From positions 1-60,958 of the forward strand of contig JAKFYD010000018.1 of the NCBI GenBank assembly GCA_021731025.1: DNA of 60,958 nt. Reading direction: 5' to 3'. This stretch comes from Pseudobdellovibrionaceae bacterium. Its GTDB lineage: Bacteria > Bdellovibrionota > Bdellovibrionia > Bdellovibrionales > Bdellovibrionaceae. A model generated the notes under the pieces. The model saw nothing but the letters and a program-made list of their open reading frames with translations. It ran no database searches and was not told the DNA's origin. Shown piece after piece: positions 16,564 to 38,713 of the stretch (position 1 is its first letter; each line of letters opens with the position of its first letter). The translations under genes and the position numbers were made by a program.

Positions 16564-17496
16564 ATGGAATTCAAGCCTTTGAGTGGACGCTTAAGTCCAA
16601 GATTTGCTGCAGTTAAGACTTTCTTTCGATTGCCTCACGTTCCCATTGAAGAAAATTACGATGTGGGAATTTTTGGTATTCCTTCGGATTTAGGAGTCTC
16701 TTACCGTCCCGGAGCGCGATTCGCGCCGACTCAGGTGCGAGAATTCTCCAGTTTAGGCCGAGGCTTTCATTGGTCTCGTGGGGTTAACATCTTCGAAAAG
16801 CTAAAAGCTGCTGATATTGGGGATTGTCCTGTGACACCCTTGAGTATCGATCAAACCATGAAGCAAATTGAAGACTACGTTAGTCAACTGTTGAAGCTTA
16901 AGAAAAAGTTTCTTGCTGTTGGGGGAGATCACTCAAACACTTTGCCCATTTTGCGAGCTTTGAAAAAACATTACGGTCAACCTTTGGCCTTCATTCACTT
17001 TGACGCTCACTTGGACACCTATCCTGCAGCTTGGGGCTGTGAGTATCATCACGGAGCTTTTGCTCGTCATGCGGTGGAAGAGGGGTTAGTTGATCCCACG
17101 CAAATGCTGCAAATTGGGTTGCGTGGTCCTTTGGCAGCGCCTGAAGATTTAGACTTTGCGAAAAAACATAAGATCACGGCGATAACTGTGGATGATGTGC
17201 GTGCTGGTCATTTGAATGACTTTGTAAAAAAATTGCCAGTTTTCAAATCAACGCCAACTTATATTAGTTATGATATTGATTGTTTAGATCCTGCTTATGC
17301 TCCGGGAACGGGAACGCCGGTGCCTGGAGGATTGACGACTTACGAAACTCAAAAAATTCTTCAGAATTTAAAAATCCCAAATCTTGTGGGTGCTGATCTG
17401 GTCGAGATTTGTCCTGCCTATGATCCTTCGAACATCACGGCATTAGCGGGAGTGGATTTTATGTTCGAAGCACTGTCGCTGATGGCCCTTAATTAA
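16564..17496 (+). CDS. speB: Agmatinase / arginase-family ureohydrolase
   Basis: The frame is open from a TTG at 16510, but the ATG at 16564, preceded by AGGT, fits the family length (310 residues) and avoids the mutY start. Manganese-site motifs are present: GGDHSNTLP, HFDAHLDTYP and YDIDCLDPAYAPGTGTP. YRPGARFAPTQVRE near the N-terminus is also diagnostic. The likely reaction is hydrolysis of agmatine to putrescine and urea, though guanidinobutyrase and similar enzymes share all these motifs. No arginine decarboxylase is in view. The 3' end overlaps the convergent response-regulator gene by 8 bases. Confidence 0.9.
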   Translation: MEFKPLSGRLSPRFAAVKTFFRLPHVPIEENYDVGIFGIPSDLGVSYRPGARFAPTQVREFSSLGRGFHWSRGVNIFEKLKAADIGDCPVTPLSIDQTMKQIEDYVSQLLKLKKKFLAVGGDHSNTLPILRALKKHYGQPLAFIHFDAHLDTYPAAWGCEYHHGAFARHAVEEGLVDPTQMLQIGLRGPLAAPEDLDFAKKHKITAITVDDVRAGHLNDFVKKLPVFKSTPTYISYDIDCLDPAYAPGTGTPVPGGLTTYETQKILQNLKIPNLVGADLVEICPAYDPSNITALAGVDFMFEALSLMALN

Positions 17497-18904
17497 AAGC
17501 GTCGAAAGCTTCTTCCCCATTGGCAGGGCGTAAGCCTTTTTTCTTAATTTTTTCCACCAAGGTCGTGCGATTCAGCTTCAGCAGCATCGCGGCTTGATTG
17601 CGATTCCATCCTGTTTTTTCGAGAGCTTTAAGAATGATGGAGTTTTCGAAAGCATCAACCGCCGAATTAAAATCCAATCCCGATTCAGGAATATCCATGG
17701 GCTCTGCCGGGCGATGAACTAATTTTCCTGAACGGTATTTTTCGGGAAGGTCGCTGACTTCCAATTGGCCGTGGCCTTTCAGAATCGTCATGCGCTCGAC
17801 GAAATTTTCAAGCTCGCGAATATTTCCAGGCCAAGCGTAATTCATTAAACATTCCATGGCTTCTGCGGAAATGCCATTAAGGCCTCGGCCTTTGCTTTTG
17901 CTGAAACTCTCGACAAAATGACCGAACAGTTGAGGAATATCTGATTTTCTTTCGCGCAAAGCGGGAAGAATCACGGGTATCACGTTCAATCGATAGTAAA
18001 GATCTTCACGGAAATTTCCGTTTTCAACGGCCTCTTCCAAATTGATGTTGGTTGCCGCAATCACTTTCACATTCACTTGAACCGTTTTCGTACTGCCAAC
18101 AGGTTCGAAGCATCTTTCCTGAAGAGCTCGCAAAATTTTCACCTGCATCGAAGGGCTGAGATCACCAATTTCATCCAGGAAAAGAGTTCCTTCGTCCGCC
18201 ATTTCAAAACGACCAAGGCGATTCGAAATCGCGCCGGTGAAAGCGCCTTTGATATGACCAAATAACTCACTCTCTAAAAGTTCAGAAGGAATCGCGCCAC
18301 AGTTGATGGCGACAAATGGTCCCGAACGACGAGGAGAATTGTAATGAATCGCTCGTGCGATCAATTCTTTTCCTGTCCCACTTTCGCCCGTAATCATCAC
18401 TGTCGAATCGGAATCGGCAACTCGCTCGACCAGTTTTAAAACACTTTGGATTTCAGGACTGCTGCCGATGATTTGTGAAAAATTGTATTTCTTATTGAGC
18501 TCTTGGCGCAGCTGTTGATTTTCTTGTTGCAGCTGTTTGTGAGTCAAGGCCTTGTCAATCAGGCTGAGAAGCTCATCCAAATTGAAAGGCTTTGTTACAA
18601 AATGAAAAGCGCCTTTTTGAGTTGCGCGAATCGCTGATTCAATCGTGCCGTGACCCGTGAGGATAATAACTTGAGTGGAAGGAGAAAGTCCTTTCAAGTA
18701 AGACATGAATTCGATGCCATCACCATCGGGCAAATTGAGATCGACGATAGCAAGATCAACCGGTGTGTCGCCCTGACAAAGCACCTTAGCCTCTTCAATA
18801 CGATGAGCGGTAATAACTTTGAGCCCCTTTTTATCGAGGACTCTAAAGAGTGCCGTCCTTAAGGTGGATTCGTCGTCTAATATAAGGGCGCGATTAATCT
18901 TCAT
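17489..18904 (-). CDS. NtrC-family sigma-54-dependent response regulator
   Basis: The 471-residue protein has three modules. Residues 1-120 form a receiver with acidic pocket DDE (10-12), phospho-acceptor Asp55 in IVDLNLPDGDG and the Lys in FVTKPF. The central AAA+ domain has Walker A GESGTGKE, the sigma-54 contact loop GAFTGA, Walker B LFLDEIGDL, the arginine-finger region FREDLYYRLNV and sensor II WPGNIRELENF. The C-terminal Fis-type helix-turn-helix is NRNQAAMLLKLNRTTLVEKI. All motifs needed for ATP-driven sigma-54 activation are present. The gene lies 125 bases downstream of the histidine kinase gene, so they probably form a pair. A target of interest is the sigma-54 promoter at 34602, though there is no direct evidence of a link. 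Confidence 0.95.
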   Translation of the reverse strand: MKINRALILDDESTLRTALFRVLDKKGLKVITAHRIEEAKVLCQGDTPVDLAIVDLNLPDGDGIEFMSYLKGLSPSTQVIILTGHGTIESAIRATQKGAFHFVTKPFNLDELLSLIDKALTHKQLQQENQQLRQELNKKYNFSQIIGSSPEIQSVLKLVERVADSDSTVMITGESGTGKELIARAIHYNSPRRSGPFVAINCGAIPSELLESELFGHIKGAFTGAISNRLGRFEMADEGTLFLDEIGDLSPSMQVKILRALQERCFEPVGSTKTVQVNVKVIAATNINLEEAVENGNFREDLYYRLNVIPVILPALRERKSDIPQLFGHFVESFSKSKGRGLNGISAEAMECLMNYAWPGNIRELENFVERMTILKGHGQLEVSDLPEKYRSGKLVHRPAEPMDIPESGLDFNSAVDAFENSIILKALEKTGWNRNQAAMLLKLNRTTLVEKIKKKGLRPANGEEAFDAFN

Positions 18905-19029: not shown

Positions 19030-20880
19030 TCAGGACCCTAAAACTGGACGAGAGAATGAAATTTTTGCAGCAGAAACTCGACTGGACAGGGACGAAATTT
19101 CCAACTCGGCATTTTGTTCTTTCAAAATTTGGGCAGCCATGGACCAGCTGTAATTCTGAGAAGAGTTCATACTTTTTAAACTGGTCACAAAAGGCATAAA
19201 AGTAATTTCGGTGCTTTTCTCGTTATTAAAAATTTGGATGATAATCTTTCTGTTGTTTTTTTGAGATTCCGAATCGCTTCGTAAAGTTTCCAAAGCAATT
19301 TGCATTAAGCTTTTAAAAGCCTGAGCCAAGAGATTGCGATGGCCAAAAATGCGTGGTGGAGGAACGGCTTGGATCATTTGGATTTCAATGCCTAAAGACT
19401 TGGTTTGCAGCTCCATAATTTTGTAAGCCCGATGAAGAACTTCGCTGATATCTAAATCTTGCACGGTATCCACTTCAGGATTTCGCGTAAAGACCAACAT
19501 ATTCTGAATGATATCTCGACAGCGCTGGGCGCCCTTTTCAATTTCGGCAATGTCGTTGTACAAAGGATCACGAGAATCTAAATCCATCTTGATCAGCTGG
19601 GCAAACGTCAGAATCCCACCAAGTGGATTGTTCAATTCATGAGCAATACTGCTGCTGATGGTTCCCAATTCGGCCAAGCGAGCTGTTTCTAAAATCAGTC
19701 GCTCCATTTTCAAGTTATTGGAAACATCTTTATAGAGATTAACGCTGATGGTTTTATTTTCACCTTCTAAACGAAGGGTTTGACTGGTGACCTCAAAAGT
19801 TTTTGACTGAGTGTTATTGACCAAGCGAAAGTTCTGTCCAATCTGACAGCCGTCGCAAATCTTTTTTGATCCAAACAAAACTTCGTGGCACTTTAATTTT
19901 TTTTCAGCCGCTGGTTCTGTCGTTAAAGAACCATAGAAACTTTCATTGGCCTGAACAATTTCAAAATTTTCATCGATCAAAGCGACCGGCTCGGCCATGG
20001 CATTAAAAGTGGATTCCCACTGGTCTTTGATGACTTCGAGCTCTTGGGTCTTGGAAATGCGATCCAAGGACAAAGCCACGGCCTCACTGACCCGAGTCAG
20101 AAAGTTCGTTTCTTCGCGATTAAACTTTTGCTCGGGGGAGCGCATGAAGAAGACGGAGCCAATGCGAACGTTTTGCGAAAAAAGAGGAATTTGCAGCTGA
20201 TGAAATTGCAATTGGCTTCCGACCTGCTGTTGGAAGACCTGATCCTGCGGAGAAAAAAGAATTCTAATCCACGACGTTTTTAGGCTGCTGTTCAAAGAGT
20301 CATTGAGATACTTCTCTATTTCAGGAACCGATTTCGCTTCATGGATCGAAAGTAAGGTCTTGCGAAAAGATTCAATTCGGGAATTAGTCACGTAGAGTTT
20401 CCGACGAGCCTCTGTCAGAAATTTGGTGCGTTTCTCTACGCGATCTTCCAGATCACTGTACAGTAAAGCCAAATCCCGGTTTTGTTCTTGAATTAATTTT
20501 TCTAAATTTTCCTGCTGTTTTAAATTTTGAGATTTTTCTAGAGCCAAGTACAAAGCATTTTCAATCTGGGTTTCGCTGAAAGAATTCAGAACCGCAAAGA
20601 AACGATACTTGCGATGAAACTCTAAAAAATTCTTTGAAGAGTAATCAGGAGGAACAACGGCGATCATCTGCAGGAAAGGATTGTCTTTCAGTAAGGACTC
20701 ATAAAAAGCTTGGAATTTTTTTTCCATCAGACTGGTGATTGAAACTCCTAAAACATCAATCATCGAAGGAGACCATTTTTTGATGGTGTGAGTGAGATCA
20801 CTCTGCAAGATGGCACCAATTTCTTGAAGCTGAGATGGCCATGGTCCAATCAAAAGAAAAGAGTTTTTTAAAGTCTGCAT
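19030..20880 (-). CDS. Histidine-kinase-like sensor with degenerate ATPase domain
   Basis: The 616-residue protein has no membrane segment. In order it has: a receiver-like N-terminus without a clear phospho-acceptor (1-115); a coiled coil (115-165); a GAF-like domain (180-275); a PAS domain (285-370) with Cys in KCHEVLFG and ICDGCQIG, a pattern seen in redox or metal-sensing PAS domains; and a dimerisation domain with phospho-acceptor His414 in SSIAHELNNPLGG. The C-terminal ATPase region is eroded. The N-box aligns to QIALETL with Ile528 where Asn is required, and neither a DxGxG box nor a GxGLGL box is found. It may act as a phosphatase or a partner for another kinase. It overlaps the HAD gene by 13 bases and precedes the NtrC-type regulator. 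Confidence 0.88.
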   Translation of the reverse strand: MQTLKNSFLLIGPWPSQLQEIGAILQSDLTHTIKKWSPSMIDVLGVSITSLMEKKFQAFYESLLKDNPFLQMIAVVPPDYSSKNFLEFHRKYRFFAVLNSFSETQIENALYLALEKSQNLKQQENLEKLIQEQNRDLALLYSDLEDRVEKRTKFLTEARRKLYVTNSRIESFRKTLLSIHEAKSVPEIEKYLNDSLNSSLKTSWIRILFSPQDQVFQQQVGSQLQFHQLQIPLFSQNVRIGSVFFMRSPEQKFNREETNFLTRVSEAVALSLDRISKTQELEVIKDQWESTFNAMAEPVALIDENFEIVQANESFYGSLTTEPAAEKKLKCHEVLFGSKKICDGCQIGQNFRLVNNTQSKTFEVTSQTLRLEGENKTISVNLYKDVSNNLKMERLILETARLAELGTISSSIAHELNNPLGGILTFAQLIKMDLDSRDPLYNDIAEIEKGAQRCRDIIQNMLVFTRNPEVDTVQDLDISEVLHRAYKIMELQTKSLGIEIQMIQAVPPPRIFGHRNLLAQAFKSLMQIALETLRSDSESQKNNRKIIIQIFNNEKSTEITFMPFVTSLKSMNSSQNYSWSMAAQILKEQNAELEISSLSSRVSAAKISFSRPVLGS

Positions 20881-31587: not shown

Positions 31588-32403
31588 CTAATCCTTCTCA
31601 GACTTCTCAATCGAAGTTCGAATAATCGATTTCACCTGATCGCGACGTTGAGCTCCGCCCAAGAAAGATTTCAGCTGATCATGCAAACTGGAATCATTAA
31701 TCAGCGCACCCAGTGTTCCTTGTCCCTTATCAATCTTCGTCATAATTTTATCCAGATGATTGATACTGGAAGAAAACTTTTCTCCACTCACACCAAAATT
31801 CGCCTGCGCGGTAAAGTCTTTTGCCTGATTGCTCACTTTGTTTAAATTGATGCTAGCTTGGCTTAAATTCTCGATGATCTTCCCAACTTTATTATCAGCG
31901 TTGATAGTTTTAGTGAGGATCAACATCTCATTCAGAATATCGAAAATCTTTTCCGTATCTTTTCCTCGGCCCGAGATGATGTTGAAAAAATCGGTGGCCT
32001 TTGCAACTTCCAGAGTTTCACCGTCTTTTACGGATTCGCTGTGATTATCGCCGGGAATGATATAGATGAACTTGTCGCCCAAAGCCCCTTGAGTGCGAAT
32101 CTCAACCTGTGAGCCTTTCGGAATGCGTGGCAAGAAAGCCATTTCCACTTTCATGGTGACGTTCAGATTTTTATTTCCAGGAACAAAATTAATTTCTTCG
32201 ATATTGCCGACGACAACTCCAGACAATGAGACAACGCTTCCTCGAGCTAAGCCTTGGACTTGATCAAATTCAGAGTGCAGTCGGGCGTGGCGAGTGAAGA
32301 AAGATTTGTCGGCTCCCAACAAGAAGATCGCGCTTAAGATAACGACTAATCCCGAGAAGACAAATATTCCAACCTTAAGATTAATTTTAAGTGAGTGTTC
32401 CAT
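31588..32403 (-). CDS. mlaD: MCE-family lipid transport protein MlaD
   Basis: The 271-residue protein has a single N-terminal membrane helix (about 10-30, KVGIFVFSGLVVILSAIFLLG). It is followed by an MCE domain (about 38-115) with VQGLARGSVVSLSGVVVGNIEEI and the RTQGALGDKFIYI block. A long helical C-terminal part follows, as in MlaD-like proteins that form hexameric rings in the periplasm. It should be the lipid-handling subunit of the ABC complex encoded just upstream. The mlaF stop and the mlaD start share one base (TAATG). Confidence 0.9.
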   Translation of the reverse strand: MEHSLKINLKVGIFVFSGLVVILSAIFLLGADKSFFTRHARLHSEFDQVQGLARGSVVSLSGVVVGNIEEINFVPGNKNLNVTMKVEMAFLPRIPKGSQVEIRTQGALGDKFIYIIPGDNHSESVKDGETLEVAKATDFFNIISGRGKDTEKIFDILNEMLILTKTINADNKVGKIIENLSQASINLNKVSNQAKDFTAQANFGVSGEKFSSSINHLDKIMTKIDKGQGTLGALINDSSLHDQLKSFLGGAQRRDQVKSIIRTSIEKSEKD

Positions 32404-33134
32404 TAGCTGGCCTCCCCATTGATAAACCGAGAAATCAATCCTGCAGAGTCTTTTTCTAATTCGCTCATTGTGCCCTGGGCCGAGATGACCCCATCCAAAA
32501 GGAAAGCCATTTTATCACAGACCGCAAAAGCCGTTGGCATATCGTGTGTGACTAGAATTGAAGTTTTCCCTTTGTTTTTCAGACGTAGAATGTGCTCTTG
32601 AATTTTTTTAGTGTTGTAGGGATCCAGTCCCGCGGTGGGTTCATCGTACAGGACAATTTCGGGTTCCATCATCATCGAGCGGGCCAGACCCACACGCTTC
32701 TGCATTCCTCCGGAAAGATTGCCGGGAAAAAGCTGATCACAACCACTCAAGCCAAATTCTTCCAACTGAGTCATGATGCGTTTTCTAATTTCACTTTCAG
32801 AATACTTGAAGTGCTCTCGTAAAGGATAAGCTAAGTTTTCATACACTGTCATGGAATCAAAAAGGGCGCCGCCTTGAAAGACGTAAGCCATCTTCTTGCG
32901 AATTTCCGAAAGCTCGCGTTCATCCATGCTTGTGATTTCTTGATCGTCGATAACAATACTTCCTGAATCTGGTTTCTCGAGACCAATAAGACTTCTTAAG
33001 ATCACACTTTTCCCAACGCCCGAACCGCCAATCAGTCCTAAGCATTCGCCTTTGTGAACATAAAAAGTCACGTCCCGGTGAACCAGCTTTTTGCCGAAGG
33101 ATTTTTTAAAGTTTTTGACTTCAATGATTCCCAT
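32403..33134 (-). CDS. mlaF: MlaF-type ABC transporter ATP-binding protein
   Basis: The 243-residue ATPase has Walker A GGSGVGKS, Q-loop YVFQGGALFDSMTVYENL, signature LSGGMQKRV, Walker B VLYDEPTAGLDP and the switch His in LVTHDM. GGALFDSMTV in the Q-loop is typical of MlaF/Ttg2A, the energy unit of MCE-linked phospholipid transporters. It lies between mlaE and mlaD and shares a base with mlaD. Confidence 0.93.
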   Translation of the reverse strand: MGIIEVKNFKKSFGKKLVHRDVTFYVHKGECLGLIGGSGVGKSVILRSLIGLEKPDSGSIVIDDQEITSMDERELSEIRKKMAYVFQGGALFDSMTVYENLAYPLREHFKYSESEIRKRIMTQLEEFGLSGCDQLFPGNLSGGMQKRVGLARSMMMEPEIVLYDEPTAGLDPYNTKKIQEHILRLKNKGKTSILVTHDMPTAFAVCDKMAFLLDGVISAQGTMSELEKDSAGLISRFINGEAS

Positions 33135-33140
33135 GCAGCC

Positions 33141-33932
33141 TCAGTTGAGTTTCTCGATGATCCAGAAAAACTTGGTTAAGAAAAAATTTCCCACTAAAAT
33201 TAAAATTGAAGAAACAACGACAGCCTTTGTGGTAGCGATACCAACTTCCTTTGTCCCGTTCTTCACGGTAAGACCGTAGTAACAAGATGGAATAGAAATA
33301 AACATCGCGAAGAAAAAGCTTTTAGAAAATCCCGACATATAATCAGAAAGAGTCACTGTGGTGAGAACTTTTAAAACATAAAAGTGGGGATTCAATTGAA
33401 GCTCAGTCGCACCAATCACAAGCCCGCCGATGTTACCGACAAGATTTGCAAAGGCGATAAGGATGGGAAGAACAACCAAGCACGCTAAGACTCGGGGAAC
33501 GACAATTCTTTTTATGGGTGAAGTCCCTAGGGCACGAATAGCATCCACCTGTTGAGTGACCACCATTGAGCCAATCTCACTGGCAAAGCCAGCACCAATT
33601 CGCGCGGCTAACATAAGGCTTGTGAACACGGGTCCCATCTCGCGAAGAATAGTGAGACTGACCAGCTTAGGAACATAAAGCTTTCCGCCGAATTTCTCTA
33701 ATCCCAATCCATACTGGAGTGCCATCACCATGCCCGTACTGAAAGCGGTAATCAGTATCAAAGGAAAAGATTTGTAACCCACTTGGTAGATTTGATCGAC
33801 GAGCAGACGAACATAGACTTTTCCCCGAACAGTATCGCGCGCAACTTGGTACATCAATACGCCCATGCCGCCCATAAACTCGAGGCACTCTCTGATGTAA
33901 ATAAAGAATGATTGGGTAACGGTTTGTATCAT
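33141..33932 (-). CDS. mlaE: MlaE-family ABC transporter permease
   Basis: The 263-residue membrane protein has about five hydrophobic segments and the MlaE hallmarks: QIYQVGYKSFPLILITAFSTGMVMALQYG, REMGPVFTSLMLAARIGAGFASEIGSMVVTQQVDA and VLACLVVLPIL. It forms the channel part of the MCE lipid transporter with MlaF and MlaD. Its start overlaps the end of the upstream lipoprotein gene by 4 bases (ATGA), so translation is coupled to it. Confidence 0.93.
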   Translation of the reverse strand: MIQTVTQSFFIYIRECLEFMGGMGVLMYQVARDTVRGKVYVRLLVDQIYQVGYKSFPLILITAFSTGMVMALQYGLGLEKFGGKLYVPKLVSLTILREMGPVFTSLMLAARIGAGFASEIGSMVVTQQVDAIRALGTSPIKRIVVPRVLACLVVLPILIAFANLVGNIGGLVIGATELQLNPHFYVLKVLTTVTLSDYMSGFSKSFFFAMFISIPSCYYGLTVKNGTKEVGIATTKAVVVSSILILVGNFFLTKFFWIIEKLN

Positions 33933-34417
33933 GGGGCCTTAAAATTATCGATGAAGGTTTGGAAATGCTTTTGTTCTTTATCGAAAGTTTTGGCGATGCC
34001 ACCGTAGATCAAAGTGTAGTTGCAGTTATTTTTTTTCAAAGTCAGAAGACTCAGTTTAACTTTAACTCCATCCACTTTTCCTTCAGCGATGGTTTTCAGA
34101 GCTTCGCGGCTGTTGTAAGGAAATTTTTCGGTTTGCACAATTTTTAAATCAACCAGGCTGGCCAGAGCTTCGTTTTCCAATTGTTCTAAGCTGGGCTCCT
34201 GTGCGCCACCACAATCGGAAAGATAGGAAATTGAATTCCCAGATTCCGTGCTGATCCAAAGACGATCTGAACTCTTTGATGAGGAAGGTTTAAAAGGCAA
34301 GGCAGGCTCTGAATAAGTAACGTTTTTAGCTGGAGCCGATTTAGGGCCGCCAACATCAACGGTCACACAACCCATAGATCCTAAACAAAGTGCTGCAATT
34401 ACAAGATGAAATCTCAT
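33929..34417 (-). CDS. Lipoprotein in the mla operon, unknown function
   Basis: The 162-residue product starts with a lipoprotein signal, with Cys17 after CLGSMG. The linker is rich in Pro, Ser and Lys. The globular domain (75-160) has strands and helices, with Cys in LSDCGGA and KKNNCNYTLIYGG that may pair. It is not an MlaC or MlaA homologue by eye. Its position as first gene of lipoprotein-mlaE-mlaF-mlaD, with a 4-base overlap, argues for a role in the same transport system, perhaps as an outer-membrane or periplasmic partner. Confidence 0.78.
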   Translation of the reverse strand: MRFHLVIAALCLGSMGCVTVDVGGPKSAPAKNVTYSEPALPFKPSSSKSSDRLWISTESGNSISYLSDCGGAQEPSLEQLENEALASLVDLKIVQTEKFPYNSREALKTIAEGKVDGVKVKLSLLTLKKNNCNYTLIYGGIAKTFDKEQKHFQTFIDNFKAP

Positions 34418-34601
34418 GGCTTACTCTTCGGCATCTTTTTAAAATCCTTGTGCTTTTTATCTTCAAAAGTTCCCGCAAAAAGGATTCGATCCCTCGGTTA
34501 GTCCAGTCGAGTCCTAGTCATGTCTTTGTCAGGTCTGACAGAAATCCGATGCTTCTTTTTCTTCCTGATAGAGCCAATTTTTCCCTAGCCCAGGAAACTT
34601 T

Positions 34602-34617
34602 TGGCATTTGATGTGCA
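34602..34617 (+). promoter_or_regulatory. Sigma-54 (-24/-12) promoter of the flagellar cluster
   Basis: TGGCATTTGATGTGCA matches the sigma-54 consensus (TGGCAC-N5-TTGCA) with GG at 34603-34604 and GC at 34615-34616, exactly ten bases between them. A start near 34628 would leave about 39 bases before the ATG at 34667. The rest of the 34418-34666 gap shows no gene. Confidence 0.8.
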
Positions 34618-34666: not shown

Positions 34667-37465
34667 ATGGTGAAGTTGAAATTGGCTTTGAAAAAAATCA
34701 TTTACGTTGGGCTGCTTTCTTTAGCATTTTCAGCCAAGGCGGCAGAGTCCTTACGTGGACAAATTGCTTTTCAAGAAGACACGGTTCATTTTGAGCTTAA
34801 TGGAGCAAAAGACTGGGTCTATGATCTGCAAAAGAAACAGGTTGGGAAAAAATGGCAAGCCGAAATGCTTGTTCAAGGCTTAGACGAGAAAACAGAACAG
34901 AACCTACTTAAGTTCAAAAATGATTTAATTTCTTCGATTAAAGTTTCACGCCAAGAGATTGATGGCAAAGTGAAAATTGTTTTTAATTTAGCTCATGGGG
35001 ATGTCGAAGTTTTTGATTATCTGACAGATCAGCCTTCACGGCTGATTGTAGATTTCTACGAGAACGAAAAAAGTAAACCTGTTGCGAAAGCAAATGCAGC
35101 TCTTCCGGAAAAGGCAGTGACAAAAAAATCAAACATCGCTGAAAAGAAAAAGGGTAGCCAACGAAAGCCAGCGACGGCAGATTATTTAGCCGTTAATGAT
35201 CAAGGTGCATTGTCTGCACAAATGACTGAAACTAAAGGCTCTTCTTTAAACCGCGGAATTTTTGACGGAGCCGATCCCTTTTTCGAGCGTTTCAGTATGA
35301 AAGACCATGAAATTAAGGAAGACGCGATCATTAAGAGCAAAGAAAATTACTATATTTCTTTCCCTCAGGTTGATTTTGTCCCGGTGGATTTTGAAAAAAT
35401 CATTCAGGCACCAAATGTTTATTCGATAGCTCCTAAAGACACGGCTGAAAATAAACAAGCTCGTTTGCTAATGACTCTTTTTGAACGTCGACGAAATCTT
35501 GTTTATTTAAAAACTTTGGCCTGGTTCAACGAAAAATATCCTGAATCTGAATACAACGAAGTCTTAGATATGATGACGGCTGATATCTATCTGCGCGAGT
35601 GGAGAGAGAAAAATGATGCCCGAGCTTTTTCATTGGCTCAACAAAAGCTGCAAAGCTATGTGCAAAAAAATCCAACCTCTTTAAAAACAGAAAAGGCCTC
35701 CTTTCTTTTAGGAGCCTTAAATTACGTTAAGGGGGATTACTTTGAAGCTCTGCGATTTTTCCTGACCCATAAAGAAAATAAAGACTTTCCAGAAAAAGCT
35801 CATTCGAAAGACCTGGCTCAGTTGGGAATGGCTCTGTCTTTTATGAAAATAAAAAAATACAAAGAAGCAGCCGACACCATGACCGAGCTTCAGGAAAAAA
35901 CGCCTTCAGAGCAGATAAAAAAGGAAGCTGCCTTTCGTATGGGAGACATTCATTTCGCCGCCCAAGATCATAAAAAGGCGATCGAAGAATATCAGAAAGC
36001 TCATAAATTATTTCCAGCCGCAATTCCTGATTTCCCCAACTCTATTTACAATCAAGCGCAGGCCTATTTTGATTTGGGTCAGTTTCGCGAAAGCCTTAAT
36101 GTTTTTCGAGAATTTATTAAGCTTAACCCCAATCATGAAAATATCGCCTACGCGATGACTCGGATTGGGGAAATTTTAGAAATTTTGGGTGCCGATCGTG
36201 AAAAAGTTCTTGGTGCTTATTTGGAAACTTATTTCCGAAACGGTGAAAGTCCAACGGCTATCGTTGCTCGCTTGCGTATGCTCAGTGCGCGCATGGCCGG
36301 CATGAAGGCCAAAGAAGTCGATCAAACCACGCAACAGATTTTAGATCTGTCGAAAAAAGTTAGTTTGCCTGGAATAGAACAGTTTTCAACAGTGATGATT
36401 GCTGATGGATTTAAAAATCGGGGAGAGCATCAAAAAGCCATCGATCTTCTTTCCTCTTATTACCAACTGAATCCAAACACTGTGGATACAAAACTCTTTC
36501 AAAAGCGAATTATCGCCAACATCAATGAAAAGATTGTCGACGAATTGAATCAAGGCCGCTTTATTCAAGCTTTGAAAACTCACAAAAAATACACCGAAAC
36601 CTGGTTAAAATTTTCGCAAAGGACAGACACCACTTACCATTTAGGGCGAGCCTACGAAATGGCGGGTGCTCCTCAAGAAGCTGCGAAATACTATCAGACT
36701 GTATTGAATAAGCTTTATGCCTTACAGGGAACTCAAGAAGGTAAAGAAAAATTTGTGAATGAAAAACTACCTTCATTGGAAACCTTGAACTTACGAATGG
36801 CCCAAGTTGAACAGCATCAGTCACGGTGGAATCAAGCTTATAACTTTTTAAAGAATATTAAAAATCCAGAACAGATGAGTGAAGATGATCAAATCGAACG
36901 CATTTTGTTGGCCGTGAAAGTTTTTGAAAATCGGGGCGATTTAAGTTCAGCTGTCAGATATTTAACAGAAGTTTTAAATGTATGGCGGGGACAAGCTGAA
37001 AAAGTGGCTTCACCTTATTATCAATTGGGTCTTCTGGAAGAAAAGCAAAACCGCAAAGACCAAGCTATGGCTTCTTTTGAAAAAGTTCGCACTTTGATGA
37101 ATGATACTCAATCAGTGGATGCGGAAGTGTACTTCAGATCTCTCGAAAAATTAGCCAGTCTTCAGTTGGAAAAAAACAATAAAGAAGAAGCCGTAAAAAT
37201 TTATTCAGAGATTTTGGAAAAATTCGAAGACAAACGTCCTTTGGCTTCCATGCGCTACCGTCTAGGAAAAATTCAGTTTGATCAGGGGAATTTACAAAAG
37301 GCCAACGAAATTTGGTCGCAATTCAAGGGAAATAATTCAGATTTCTGGAAGAATCTAGCCCAGGAGCAGTTGCAAAGTTCTGACTGGAAACAAAATTACA
37401 AAAAATATATCCAACGTATTCCTGCAATGACCGATAAGGAGGCAAAACCAAATGCCATCAATTGA
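34667..37465 (+). CDS. Large secreted AMIN-like / TPR protein at the head of the flagellar cluster
   Basis: The 932-residue protein has a signal peptide (about residues 1-25, ending AKAAE). Its N-terminal domain (26-135) looks like an AMIN domain, with alternating strands ending RLIVDFYENE; AMIN domains bind peptidoglycan in amidases and secretins. A Lys/Ala-rich linker follows. Residues 260-920 are helical TPR-like repeats (for example FRMGDIHFAAQDHKKAIEEYQKA and YNQAQAYFDLGQFRESLNVF). ATG at 34667, GTG at 34670 and TTG at 34676 are all possible starts; an AGGA site best suits the last. A periplasmic scaffold or motor-linked role is inferred from its place as first gene after a sigma-54 promoter, overlapping the next gene by 14 bases. 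Confidence 0.85.
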   Translation: MVKLKLALKKIIYVGLLSLAFSAKAAESLRGQIAFQEDTVHFELNGAKDWVYDLQKKQVGKKWQAEMLVQGLDEKTEQNLLKFKNDLISSIKVSRQEIDGKVKIVFNLAHGDVEVFDYLTDQPSRLIVDFYENEKSKPVAKANAALPEKAVTKKSNIAEKKKGSQRKPATADYLAVNDQGALSAQMTETKGSSLNRGIFDGADPFFERFSMKDHEIKEDAIIKSKENYYISFPQVDFVPVDFEKIIQAPNVYSIAPKDTAENKQARLLMTLFERRRNLVYLKTLAWFNEKYPESEYNEVLDMMTADIYLREWREKNDARAFSLAQQKLQSYVQKNPTSLKTEKASFLLGALNYVKGDYFEALRFFLTHKENKDFPEKAHSKDLAQLGMALSFMKIKKYKEAADTMTELQEKTPSEQIKKEAAFRMGDIHFAAQDHKKAIEEYQKAHKLFPAAIPDFPNSIYNQAQAYFDLGQFRESLNVFREFIKLNPNHENIAYAMTRIGEILEILGADREKVLGAYLETYFRNGESPTAIVARLRMLSARMAGMKAKEVDQTTQQILDLSKKVSLPGIEQFSTVMIADGFKNRGEHQKAIDLLSSYYQLNPNTVDTKLFQKRIIANINEKIVDELNQGRFIQALKTHKKYTETWLKFSQRTDTTYHLGRAYEMAGAPQEAAKYYQTVLNKLYALQGTQEGKEKFVNEKLPSLETLNLRMAQVEQHQSRWNQAYNFLKNIKNPEQMSEDDQIERILLAVKVFENRGDLSSAVRYLTEVLNVWRGQAEKVASPYYQLGLLEEKQNRKDQAMASFEKVRTLMNDTQSVDAEVYFRSLEKLASLQLEKNNKEEAVKIYSEILEKFEDKRPLASMRYRLGKIQFDQGNLQKANEIWSQFKGNNSDFWKNLAQEQLQSSDWKQNYKKYIQRIPAMTDKEAKPNAIN

Positions 37466-38312
37466 TCTTGATCGAGTCCATTTTGAATCCAATGAACTCA
37501 GCCAGTTATTTTCATTTTTAAAACGGACTGTGCAGACTGCAGCTCCAATTCATATTTCAGGGCCAGCCGGTGTAGGTAAGACAACATGGGCGCAATGGCT
37601 TATGACTCAATGGCCCAGCCTAAGTGTTAAAGAAATGGATGGACGTGAAGTCACTTTGCAATTCTTTCGTCGTATGACTGAAGCGATGAGCTCGGGTCTC
37701 ATTTGCATTGAAAATGTGGATATGGTGGATTTGTCCACGCAAAAAGAGATTGCTGATTTCTTAGAGCAAAGAAATCATGGTCAACAAATTAAGGTAATTA
37801 CAACTTCGCGAAAGAAGCTCAGAGACCTAGTGGCTGAGGAGCAATTCCGTTTGGATCTTTTTTGCCGTCTGAGCGTCTTGCAAGTTGAACTTCCGTCATT
37901 AAAAAATATCCGAGAAGAAGTTCTACCCGTGGCTCATTTTTATCTGCGTGTTTTCGAGATTCTTTACAAAAAGGGTCCACTGAATTTCACAGACGGAGCT
38001 ATGAATAAATTAGCTCAGGCTTCTTGGGCAGGAAATTTCACCGAGCTGGAAAGTGTTGTTGAAAGATCGGTTGTGCTCGCTCAAAGTCCCACTATTGGCG
38101 AAGAGAATATTGTTTTTCAATTTCAAGACAACCGAACTCAATCAGCCGATATGCCCGCTGGTCTGTCTCTTTCTGAAATGGAAAGACGTCTTATTTTACA
38201 AACCTTGAAACTCACCGATCAAAACCGCACCAAGGCGGCACAGATTTTAGGAATTAGTATTAGAACTTTAAGAAACAAACTTCACGAATACAAAGAGGCA
38301 GGTCATTTATGA
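37452..38312 (+). CDS. Degenerate sigma-54 activator-like regulator (AAA+ and Fis-type helix-turn-helix)
   Basis: The 286-residue protein resembles the central and DNA-binding domains of NtrC/FleQ-type activators but lacks a receiver. Walker A is intact (GPAGVGKTT, 37-45). The stretch from Walker A to Walker B is about 20 residues too short and has no GAFTGA loop, the element that contacts sigma-54. Walker B reads ICIEN instead of LFLDE, and sensor II reads GNFTELES, losing the conserved Arg of GNIRELEN. The C-terminal helix-turn-helix is complete (NRTKAAQILGISIRTLRNKL). It should bind DNA but is unlikely to open sigma-54 complexes. It may be a repressor, anti-activator or partner of an active activator. 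It overlaps genes on both sides (14 and 4 bases). Confidence 0.88.
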   Translation: MPSIDLDRVHFESNELSQLFSFLKRTVQTAAPIHISGPAGVGKTTWAQWLMTQWPSLSVKEMDGREVTLQFFRRMTEAMSSGLICIENVDMVDLSTQKEIADFLEQRNHGQQIKVITTSRKKLRDLVAEEQFRLDLFCRLSVLQVELPSLKNIREEVLPVAHFYLRVFEILYKKGPLNFTDGAMNKLAQASWAGNFTELESVVERSVVLAQSPTIGEENIVFQFQDNRTQSADMPAGLSLSEMERRLILQTLKLTDQNRTKAAQILGISIRTLRNKLHEYKEAGHL

Positions 38313-38713
38313 GTTTATTTGATAAAACCAGTGCAGCCTTGCAAACATCGCTTTCCATGCGGCAGCTTCGACACAACGTCACGGCTTCGAACATCGCCAA
38401 TGCAGAAACACCGGGATATCACGCTCAAAAGATGGATTTTGAAGAAGCTTTGGCTCGGTCAGTGGATTTGGACGGGCTGCGTGGAATGAGCACCTCCAAC
38501 GAAAAGCATTTTTCAGTTGGTGGACCAACAGCAAAAGTTCGCCCCGATATTTATGAAAACCCCGAAGGTGCTATCAACAATGATGGCAACACCGTTGACC
38601 TGGAAAAAGAAATGTCGGCCTTGTCAGAGAATGCCATTCTGTACAAAGCGGCTTTGCAAATGATCAATAAAAAAATGGCGGCTTTAAAATACGCTGCTTC
38701 GGAAGGTCGGTAA
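38309..38713 (+). CDS. flgB: Flagellar proximal rod protein FlgB
   Basis: The 134-residue rod protein has the family N-terminus with LRHNVTASNIANAETPGYHAQK and a C-terminal helix (ENAILYKAALQMINKK) that pairs in the rod. It overlaps the preceding regulator gene by 4 bases, and flgC follows after three. FlgB, FlgC and FliE build the base of the rod on the MS ring. Confidence 0.95.
   Translation: MSLFDKTSAALQTSLSMRQLRHNVTASNIANAETPGYHAQKMDFEEALARSVDLDGLRGMSTSNEKHFSVGGPTAKVRPDIYENPEGAINNDGNTVDLEKEMSALSENAILYKAALQMINKKMAALKYAASEGR

Follow-up and report, generated by a model that had tools for sequence, protein, structure and literature searches.

A degenerate FlbD-type regulator, probably repressive, in a sigma-54-associated flagellar operon of a Pseudobdellovibrionaceae bacterium

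The window, that is the whole stretch of 60,958 nucleotides analysed here from a Pseudobdellovibrionaceae bacterium, contains a flagellar operon whose second gene encodes a 286-aa protein resembling sigma-54 enhancer-binding proteins (EBPs). The features are listed in Table 1. The first gene encodes a 932-aa TPR-repeat protein, which opened the flagellar operon in all the flagellated genomes of the order that were examined. The second gene overlaps the TPR gene at its 5′ end and flgB at its 3′ end, and these coordinates agree with its description in an earlier note on this DNA, made from the sequence alone, as the second gene of the operon. Downstream of flgB the operon continues with flgC, fliE, fliF, fliG, fliH, fliI, fliJ, fliK, flgD and flgE, of which fliK, flgD and flgE were assigned by Pfam and the other flagellar genes by sequence and order. 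In most of the order's genomes, a small gene and divergent transporter-like genes (Mla-like by resemblance; here at 31588-34417 on the minus strand) adjoin the flagellar operon.

Table 1. Features of the flagellar operon, its promoter region and the candidate activator locus in the window.
Feature	Position	Strand	Details
Intact NtrC-type response regulator	17489..18904	-	GAFTGA and receiver present; candidate flagellar sigma-54 activator
HisKA-domain protein	19030..20880	-	beside the regulator at 17489; candidate cognate sensor kinase
Site A	34515..34540	+	TAGTCATGTCTTTGTCAGGTCTGACA; candidate enhancer of the full activator
Site B	34572..34585	+	AGCCAATTTTTCCC; consensus GGmAA-N4-TTkCC; candidate site of the degenerate FlbD
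Sigma-54 promoter	34602..34617	+	TGGCATTTGATGTGCA; conserved in 38 genomes
TPR-repeat protein	34667..37465	+	first operon gene
Degenerate FlbD-type enhancer-binding protein	37452..38312	+	286 aa, without receiver domain; Pfam domains, NCBIfam FlbD
Walker A	37560..37583	+	GPAGVGKT, residues 37-44
21-residue deletion junction	37658..37659	+	loop 1 (GAFTGA) gone; between residues 69/70 in the alignment used
Degenerate Walker B	37710..37715	+	E87-N88 replacing D-E
10-residue deletion junction	37778..37779	+	second-loop region; between residues 109/110 in the alignment used
Fis-type helix-turn-helix	38157..38297	+	LGISIRTLRNKLHEYKE; residues 236-282; near-invariant
flgB	38309..38713	+

The 286-aa protein contains the Pfam domains Sigma54_activ_2, AAA_lid_14 and HTH_8, and the fold of the AAA+ sigma-54 interaction domain was recognised in it (PF14532, E 1.4e-16). 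The Walker A motif, with its lysine at K43, and the Fis-type helix-turn-helix (HTH) are retained, as the earlier note had read them. When aligned with intact relatives, the protein has 44 residues between Walker A and Walker B as compared with 65, so the shortening of about 20 residues noticed earlier amounts to 21 residues and accounts for the loss of the GAFTGA loop; no GAFTGA occurs elsewhere in the protein. In addition, the spacing between Walker B and sensor I is 28 residues as compared with 38, and this 10-residue deletion, which the earlier note did not list, takes away the second sigma-54-facing loop region. The reported loss of the Walker B D-E pair and of the sensor II arginine, which serve ATP hydrolysis, was also borne out by the alignment, where the protein has E-N in place of the D-E of intact relatives and a threonine at the sensor II position. 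The two arginine-finger positions are arginine in the window protein and not in several orthologs. The AlphaFold model of the protein has a mean pLDDT of 88 and matches the AAA domains of NtrC1 and FlrC with a TM-score of up to 0.77 by target length. The retained HTH and the lost motifs together support the earlier suggestion of a protein that is expected to bind DNA and, on its own, not to activate sigma-54.

The best NCBIfam profile for the whole protein was FlbD (NF050807, E 1.5e-37), and the HTH alone also matched FlbD best (E 2.7e-16), followed by Fis (E 8.6e-9). The 129.5 bits scored by the protein lie below the 750-bit equivalog cut-off of the FlbD profile, which is also not reached by the intact relatives L030 (403 bits) and L002 (423 bits). 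By these scores the protein resembles the FlbD lineage and is not an FlbD equivalog. It is likewise not a stand-alone HTH dimer of the Fis type (~98 aa), as it has 286 aa with an AAA domain that is predicted to be folded. Like FlbD of Caulobacter crescentus and its homolog DVU1063 of Desulfovibrio vulgaris, the window protein appears to have its role in flagellar operons, but it differs from both in lacking a receiver, GAFTGA, the second sigma-54-facing segment and the D-E of Walker B. The receiver domain is also absent from the intact orthologs of the order.

Orthologs of the gene were found directly 5′ of flgB in most of the flagellated genomes searched. In the families of the order other than that of the window (f1), they are about 310-360 aa long and as a rule have an intact GAFTGA and no receiver. 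The orthologs of distant deltaproteobacteria are longer and have a receiver-type N-terminus; those of L002-L006 carry ~150 extra N-terminal residues, which in L002 align with receiver-domain families. By position and sequence, the window gene is an ortholog of the intact receiver-less FlbD-like activators of the sister families. All the orthologs found in f1 lack both sigma-54-contacting segments, and since each of them shares these losses and lies directly 5′ of flgB, which the earlier note had proposed to check, the losses are not a matter of chance. The erosion goes further in some orthologs: the Walker A lysine is replaced by arginine in G019 and G015, the AAA core is mostly gone and the HTH kept in G003, and the 141-aa ortholog of G022 is essentially the HTH with a remnant, without the AAA core.

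The gene has been lost from G004, G008, G010, G011, G016, G017, G018 and G020 in f1 and from G030 in another family (f7), and in the genomes without it the TPR gene runs straight into flgB. The independent losses were too weakly supported on a tree of a single protein, which was replaced by a tree of seven concatenated proteins (2653 columns), on which the losses correspond to at least five independent events on supported branches. The repeated loss shows that the gene is dispensable, and it is what would be expected if the protein were an activator made redundant by a sufficient regulator at 17489 and now heading to loss without a present function. The eroding AAA domain fits such a vestige too, and so does the separate erosion of GAFTGA that the sequences indicate for another family, f2, where the G025 ortholog (L024) has GAFVGA with D-D in Walker B and that of G033 (L018) has no recognisable GAFTGA. 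The conservation of the HTH makes this explanation quite unlikely, however. Within f1 the AAA cores share a pairwise identity of 0.26, as compared with 0.61 among the intact relatives of other families, whereas for the HTH the value is 0.71 between the genera of f1 as compared with 0.75. A low AAA-core identity with a high HTH identity suggests that selection acts on DNA binding, and neither this pattern nor a minimal form of 141 aa in which precisely the HTH is retained is expected in the absence of selection.

The same relatives bear on the possibility, raised in the earlier note, that the protein is a hetero-oligomer poison. FleQ/FleT and HrpR/HrpS are paired EBPs that serve one set of sigma-54 promoters, and the window protein could similarly tether or poison the activator encoded at 17489 through AAA-AAA contacts in a mixed ring; its Walker A, its arginine fingers and the NtrC1-like AAA fold of its model would permit this. 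These pairs need their AAA contacts, but some orthologs of the window protein can do without the AAA core, and its absence from G022, its near absence from G003, the Walker A substitutions of G019 and G015 and the loss of arginine fingers in several orthologs, with the HTH kept, make a mixed ring the least probable of the readings weighed here. None of the other full EBPs of the genome whose C-termini were compared, a set without those at C54:8432 and C25:52423, carries the same HTH; this also counts against the poison, and a second full activator with this HTH was rejected as a competitor.

The sigma-54 promoter which the earlier note had placed at 34602 is real, as a site of the TGGCAY-N6-TGCW type was found 5′ of the operon in 26/26 genomes first compared and in 12/12 added genomes. 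The weakest of these sites is TGGCATAGTTTTAGCT in G016. In all the genomes examined the site is kept with or without the gene and irrespective of whether the protein is intact. Site A begins 87 bases 5′ of the TGG of this promoter in the window and lies at -87/-88 in most f1 genomes, with exceptions of one helical turn (-76 and -98) in two genomes. Its core, GTCA-N6-TG[ATG]C, was found 5′ of the promoter in 28 of 38 genomes as against about 0.2 expected in all, i.e. in 12 of 17 genomes keeping the gene, 6 of 9 that have lost it and 10 of 12 other relatives. The core resembles GTCA-N6-TGAC, the motif predicted for FlrA/FleQ-like regulators (PMC4641369). Site A as the sole site of the degenerate protein was rejected, as it is still present in genomes lacking the gene; since site A outlasts the gene, activation must come from another protein. 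The best candidate is the intact regulator at 17489, which the earlier note had named as a possible full activator and which tracks flagellation: its orthologs (51-84% identical) are present in the flgB-positive genomes searched (partial in G038, G011 and G016), and in the flgB-negative genomes the ortholog has an internal stop (G027) or is missing (G026, a genome 83% complete). Together with its HisKA neighbour, this regulator is likely the flagellar two-component activator of the group.

The genome of the window has a second flagellar operon with a sigma-54 promoter, fliL-fliM-fliN at L145, where the promoter TGGCACTTGTGTTGCT and elements like site A and site B lie at L145:3862-3989 (minus strand). 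The sigma-54 promoter 5′ of fliL is conserved in 35/36 genomes and weak in G016, and a core of the site A kind also precedes many fliL operons.

Site B occupies the interval from site A to the promoter in those f1 genomes where the gene is kept. The motif was derived from these keepers, is T-rich and of low information, and was scored against mononucleotide shuffles; with half of the keepers held out of training, it was detected at p≤0.05 in 13/17 keepers and in 0/9 genomes that have lost the gene (Fisher 2e-4). The relatives of other families, on which it was not trained, had it at the TPR promoter in 5/12 cases at the same threshold, as against 0/9 losers (p 0.04). At the fliL promoter, also untrained, it was found at p≤0.01 in 8/17 keepers and 0/9 losers (p 0.016), and at the looser cut-off of p≤0.05 the contrast weakened to 11/27 as against 1/9 (p 0.11). 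On the 2653-column tree, 4.3 of 5 independent pairs show site B tracking the gene and none shows the reverse, with a median p of 0.125 in a sign test which with five pairs cannot reach 0.05. Chance conservation of the promoter elements was rejected, as the motif content of site A (22.6 bits) and site B (12.2 bits) exceeds that of shuffled sequence (11-13 and 6.6-8.1 bits, respectively). Site B is similar to the GGCA-N4/5-TGCC motif of the FlbD group, for which GGCA-N4-TGCC was obtained by DAP-chip with DVU1063 and GGCA-N5-TGCC is the motif of FlbD itself (PMC3333781). The TPR promoter has approximate matches only to the exact FlbD consensus GGCA-N-TGCC, and exact GGCA-N5-TGCC was found in the fliL promoters of G007 and G034 only. 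Co-occurrence with the gene and family resemblance thus support site B as a candidate target of the degenerate FlbD.

We propose, with a probability of roughly 0.55, that the window protein is an FlbD-type operon regulator that has lost its activator half, binds site B and damps the operon, which the regulator at 17489 activates through site A. The intact two-component activator would bind site A and drive the sigma-54 promoter, and the degenerate FlbD, produced from the second gene of the operon, would occupy site B, which is flanked by site A and the promoter core. When enough of the protein has been made, the contact between site A and the promoter would be disturbed and the operon damped by its own product; fliL-fliM-fliN would probably be damped as well, since sites A and B are both present there in the window genome. 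Caulobacter FlbD is an activator of middle and later genes and a repressor of the early fliF operon, on which it acts at ftr4 (PMC3930126), and the arm retained here would correspond to the repressive arm seen at fliF. As the activation machinery is gone, only the repressor role of FlbD can remain, and the protein is probably a repressive FlbD with only its DNA-binding arm left. The feedback on its own operon suggested in the earlier note is plausible, given that its own promoter carries an FlbD-like element and that fliF offers a precedent.

Repression is argued here from position and from Caulobacter, and a site with the enhancer on one side and the promoter on the other might just as well assist looping. 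The main rival of the repressor reading is accordingly an architectural helper that bends the DNA at site B as IHF or Fis does, so that the activator reaches the polymerase and expression is raised. IHF commonly binds between the enhancer and the promoter of RpoN-dependent promoters (PMC7962754), and site B has this placement, with spacings about one helical turn apart (-62, -51, -41 and -30). The fixed spacing of site A with its one-turn exceptions, the Fis-like form of the end-point ortholog and the fact that the HTH matched no NCBIfam family besides FlbD and Fis also agree with such a helper. It is unlikely nevertheless, because the promoter, and in most cases site A, remain in genomes that lack the gene, with no evident replacement site, and site B is out of phase (-36) in G024 and G006. 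The only ortholog near Fis in size, that of G022, closely resembles Fis with its 98 residues in design; unlike Fis, however, the protein keeps its AAA domain in most species and is likely to have few sites per genome.

Regulators with the EBP fold and without the sigma-54 loop are known to act as DNA-binding regulators, some of them as repressors (PMC10274813, PMC3162934). The GAFTGA-less NtrC of Caulobacter and Rhodobacter, TyrR, DhaR, HupR and VpsR have lost the sigma-54 loop like the window protein, which differs from them in also lacking the second loop region and in the further erosion of its ATPase motifs. In addition, the NtrC proteins of Caulobacter and Rhodobacter depend on phosphorylation of a receiver (PMC10274813), which the window protein does not have. 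All these regulators have been reported at sigma-70 promoters, and a switch to sigma-70 promoters elsewhere, as in TyrR or the NtrC of Rhodobacter capsulatus and Caulobacter, is the documented fate of GAFTGA-less EBPs (PMC10274813, PMC3162934). For the window protein such a switch is very unlikely, since the promoter associated with it is a conserved one of the sigma-54 type.

Loss of GAFTGA in such proteins is therefore already known, and it is the lineage and the graded series that appear new. We did not find in the open-access literature searched a description of a member of the FlbD lineage that lacks both sigma-54-facing segments, is still tied to a sigma-54 promoter and grades to a near-Fis form and to loss of the gene, nor FlbD or flagellar sigma-54 EBPs named together with Bdellovibrio. 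Tentatively, at slightly under even odds, the orthologs can be read as a series within one order, from an intact activator through loss of both sigma-54-contacting loops and decay of the ATPase to a 141-aa HTH protein and finally to loss of the gene; its middle stages would be a dual activator and repressor cut down to the repressor arm, at a promoter that stays sigma-54 dependent and is driven by another activator. Such a series would separate by natural experiment the activation and repression that are combined in FlbD, and graded EBP intermediates in which the motor is lost and the DNA-binding end kept are relevant to the origin of Fis-like proteins. The sites and partners described here are testable ones for flagellar control in Bdellovibrio-type predators. 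Elsewhere, at L221 (about 1350-1560), a sigma-54 promoter and a site A-like element precede a TPR gene, and the gene after this TPR gene looks like a motility accessory (Maf-like) factor.
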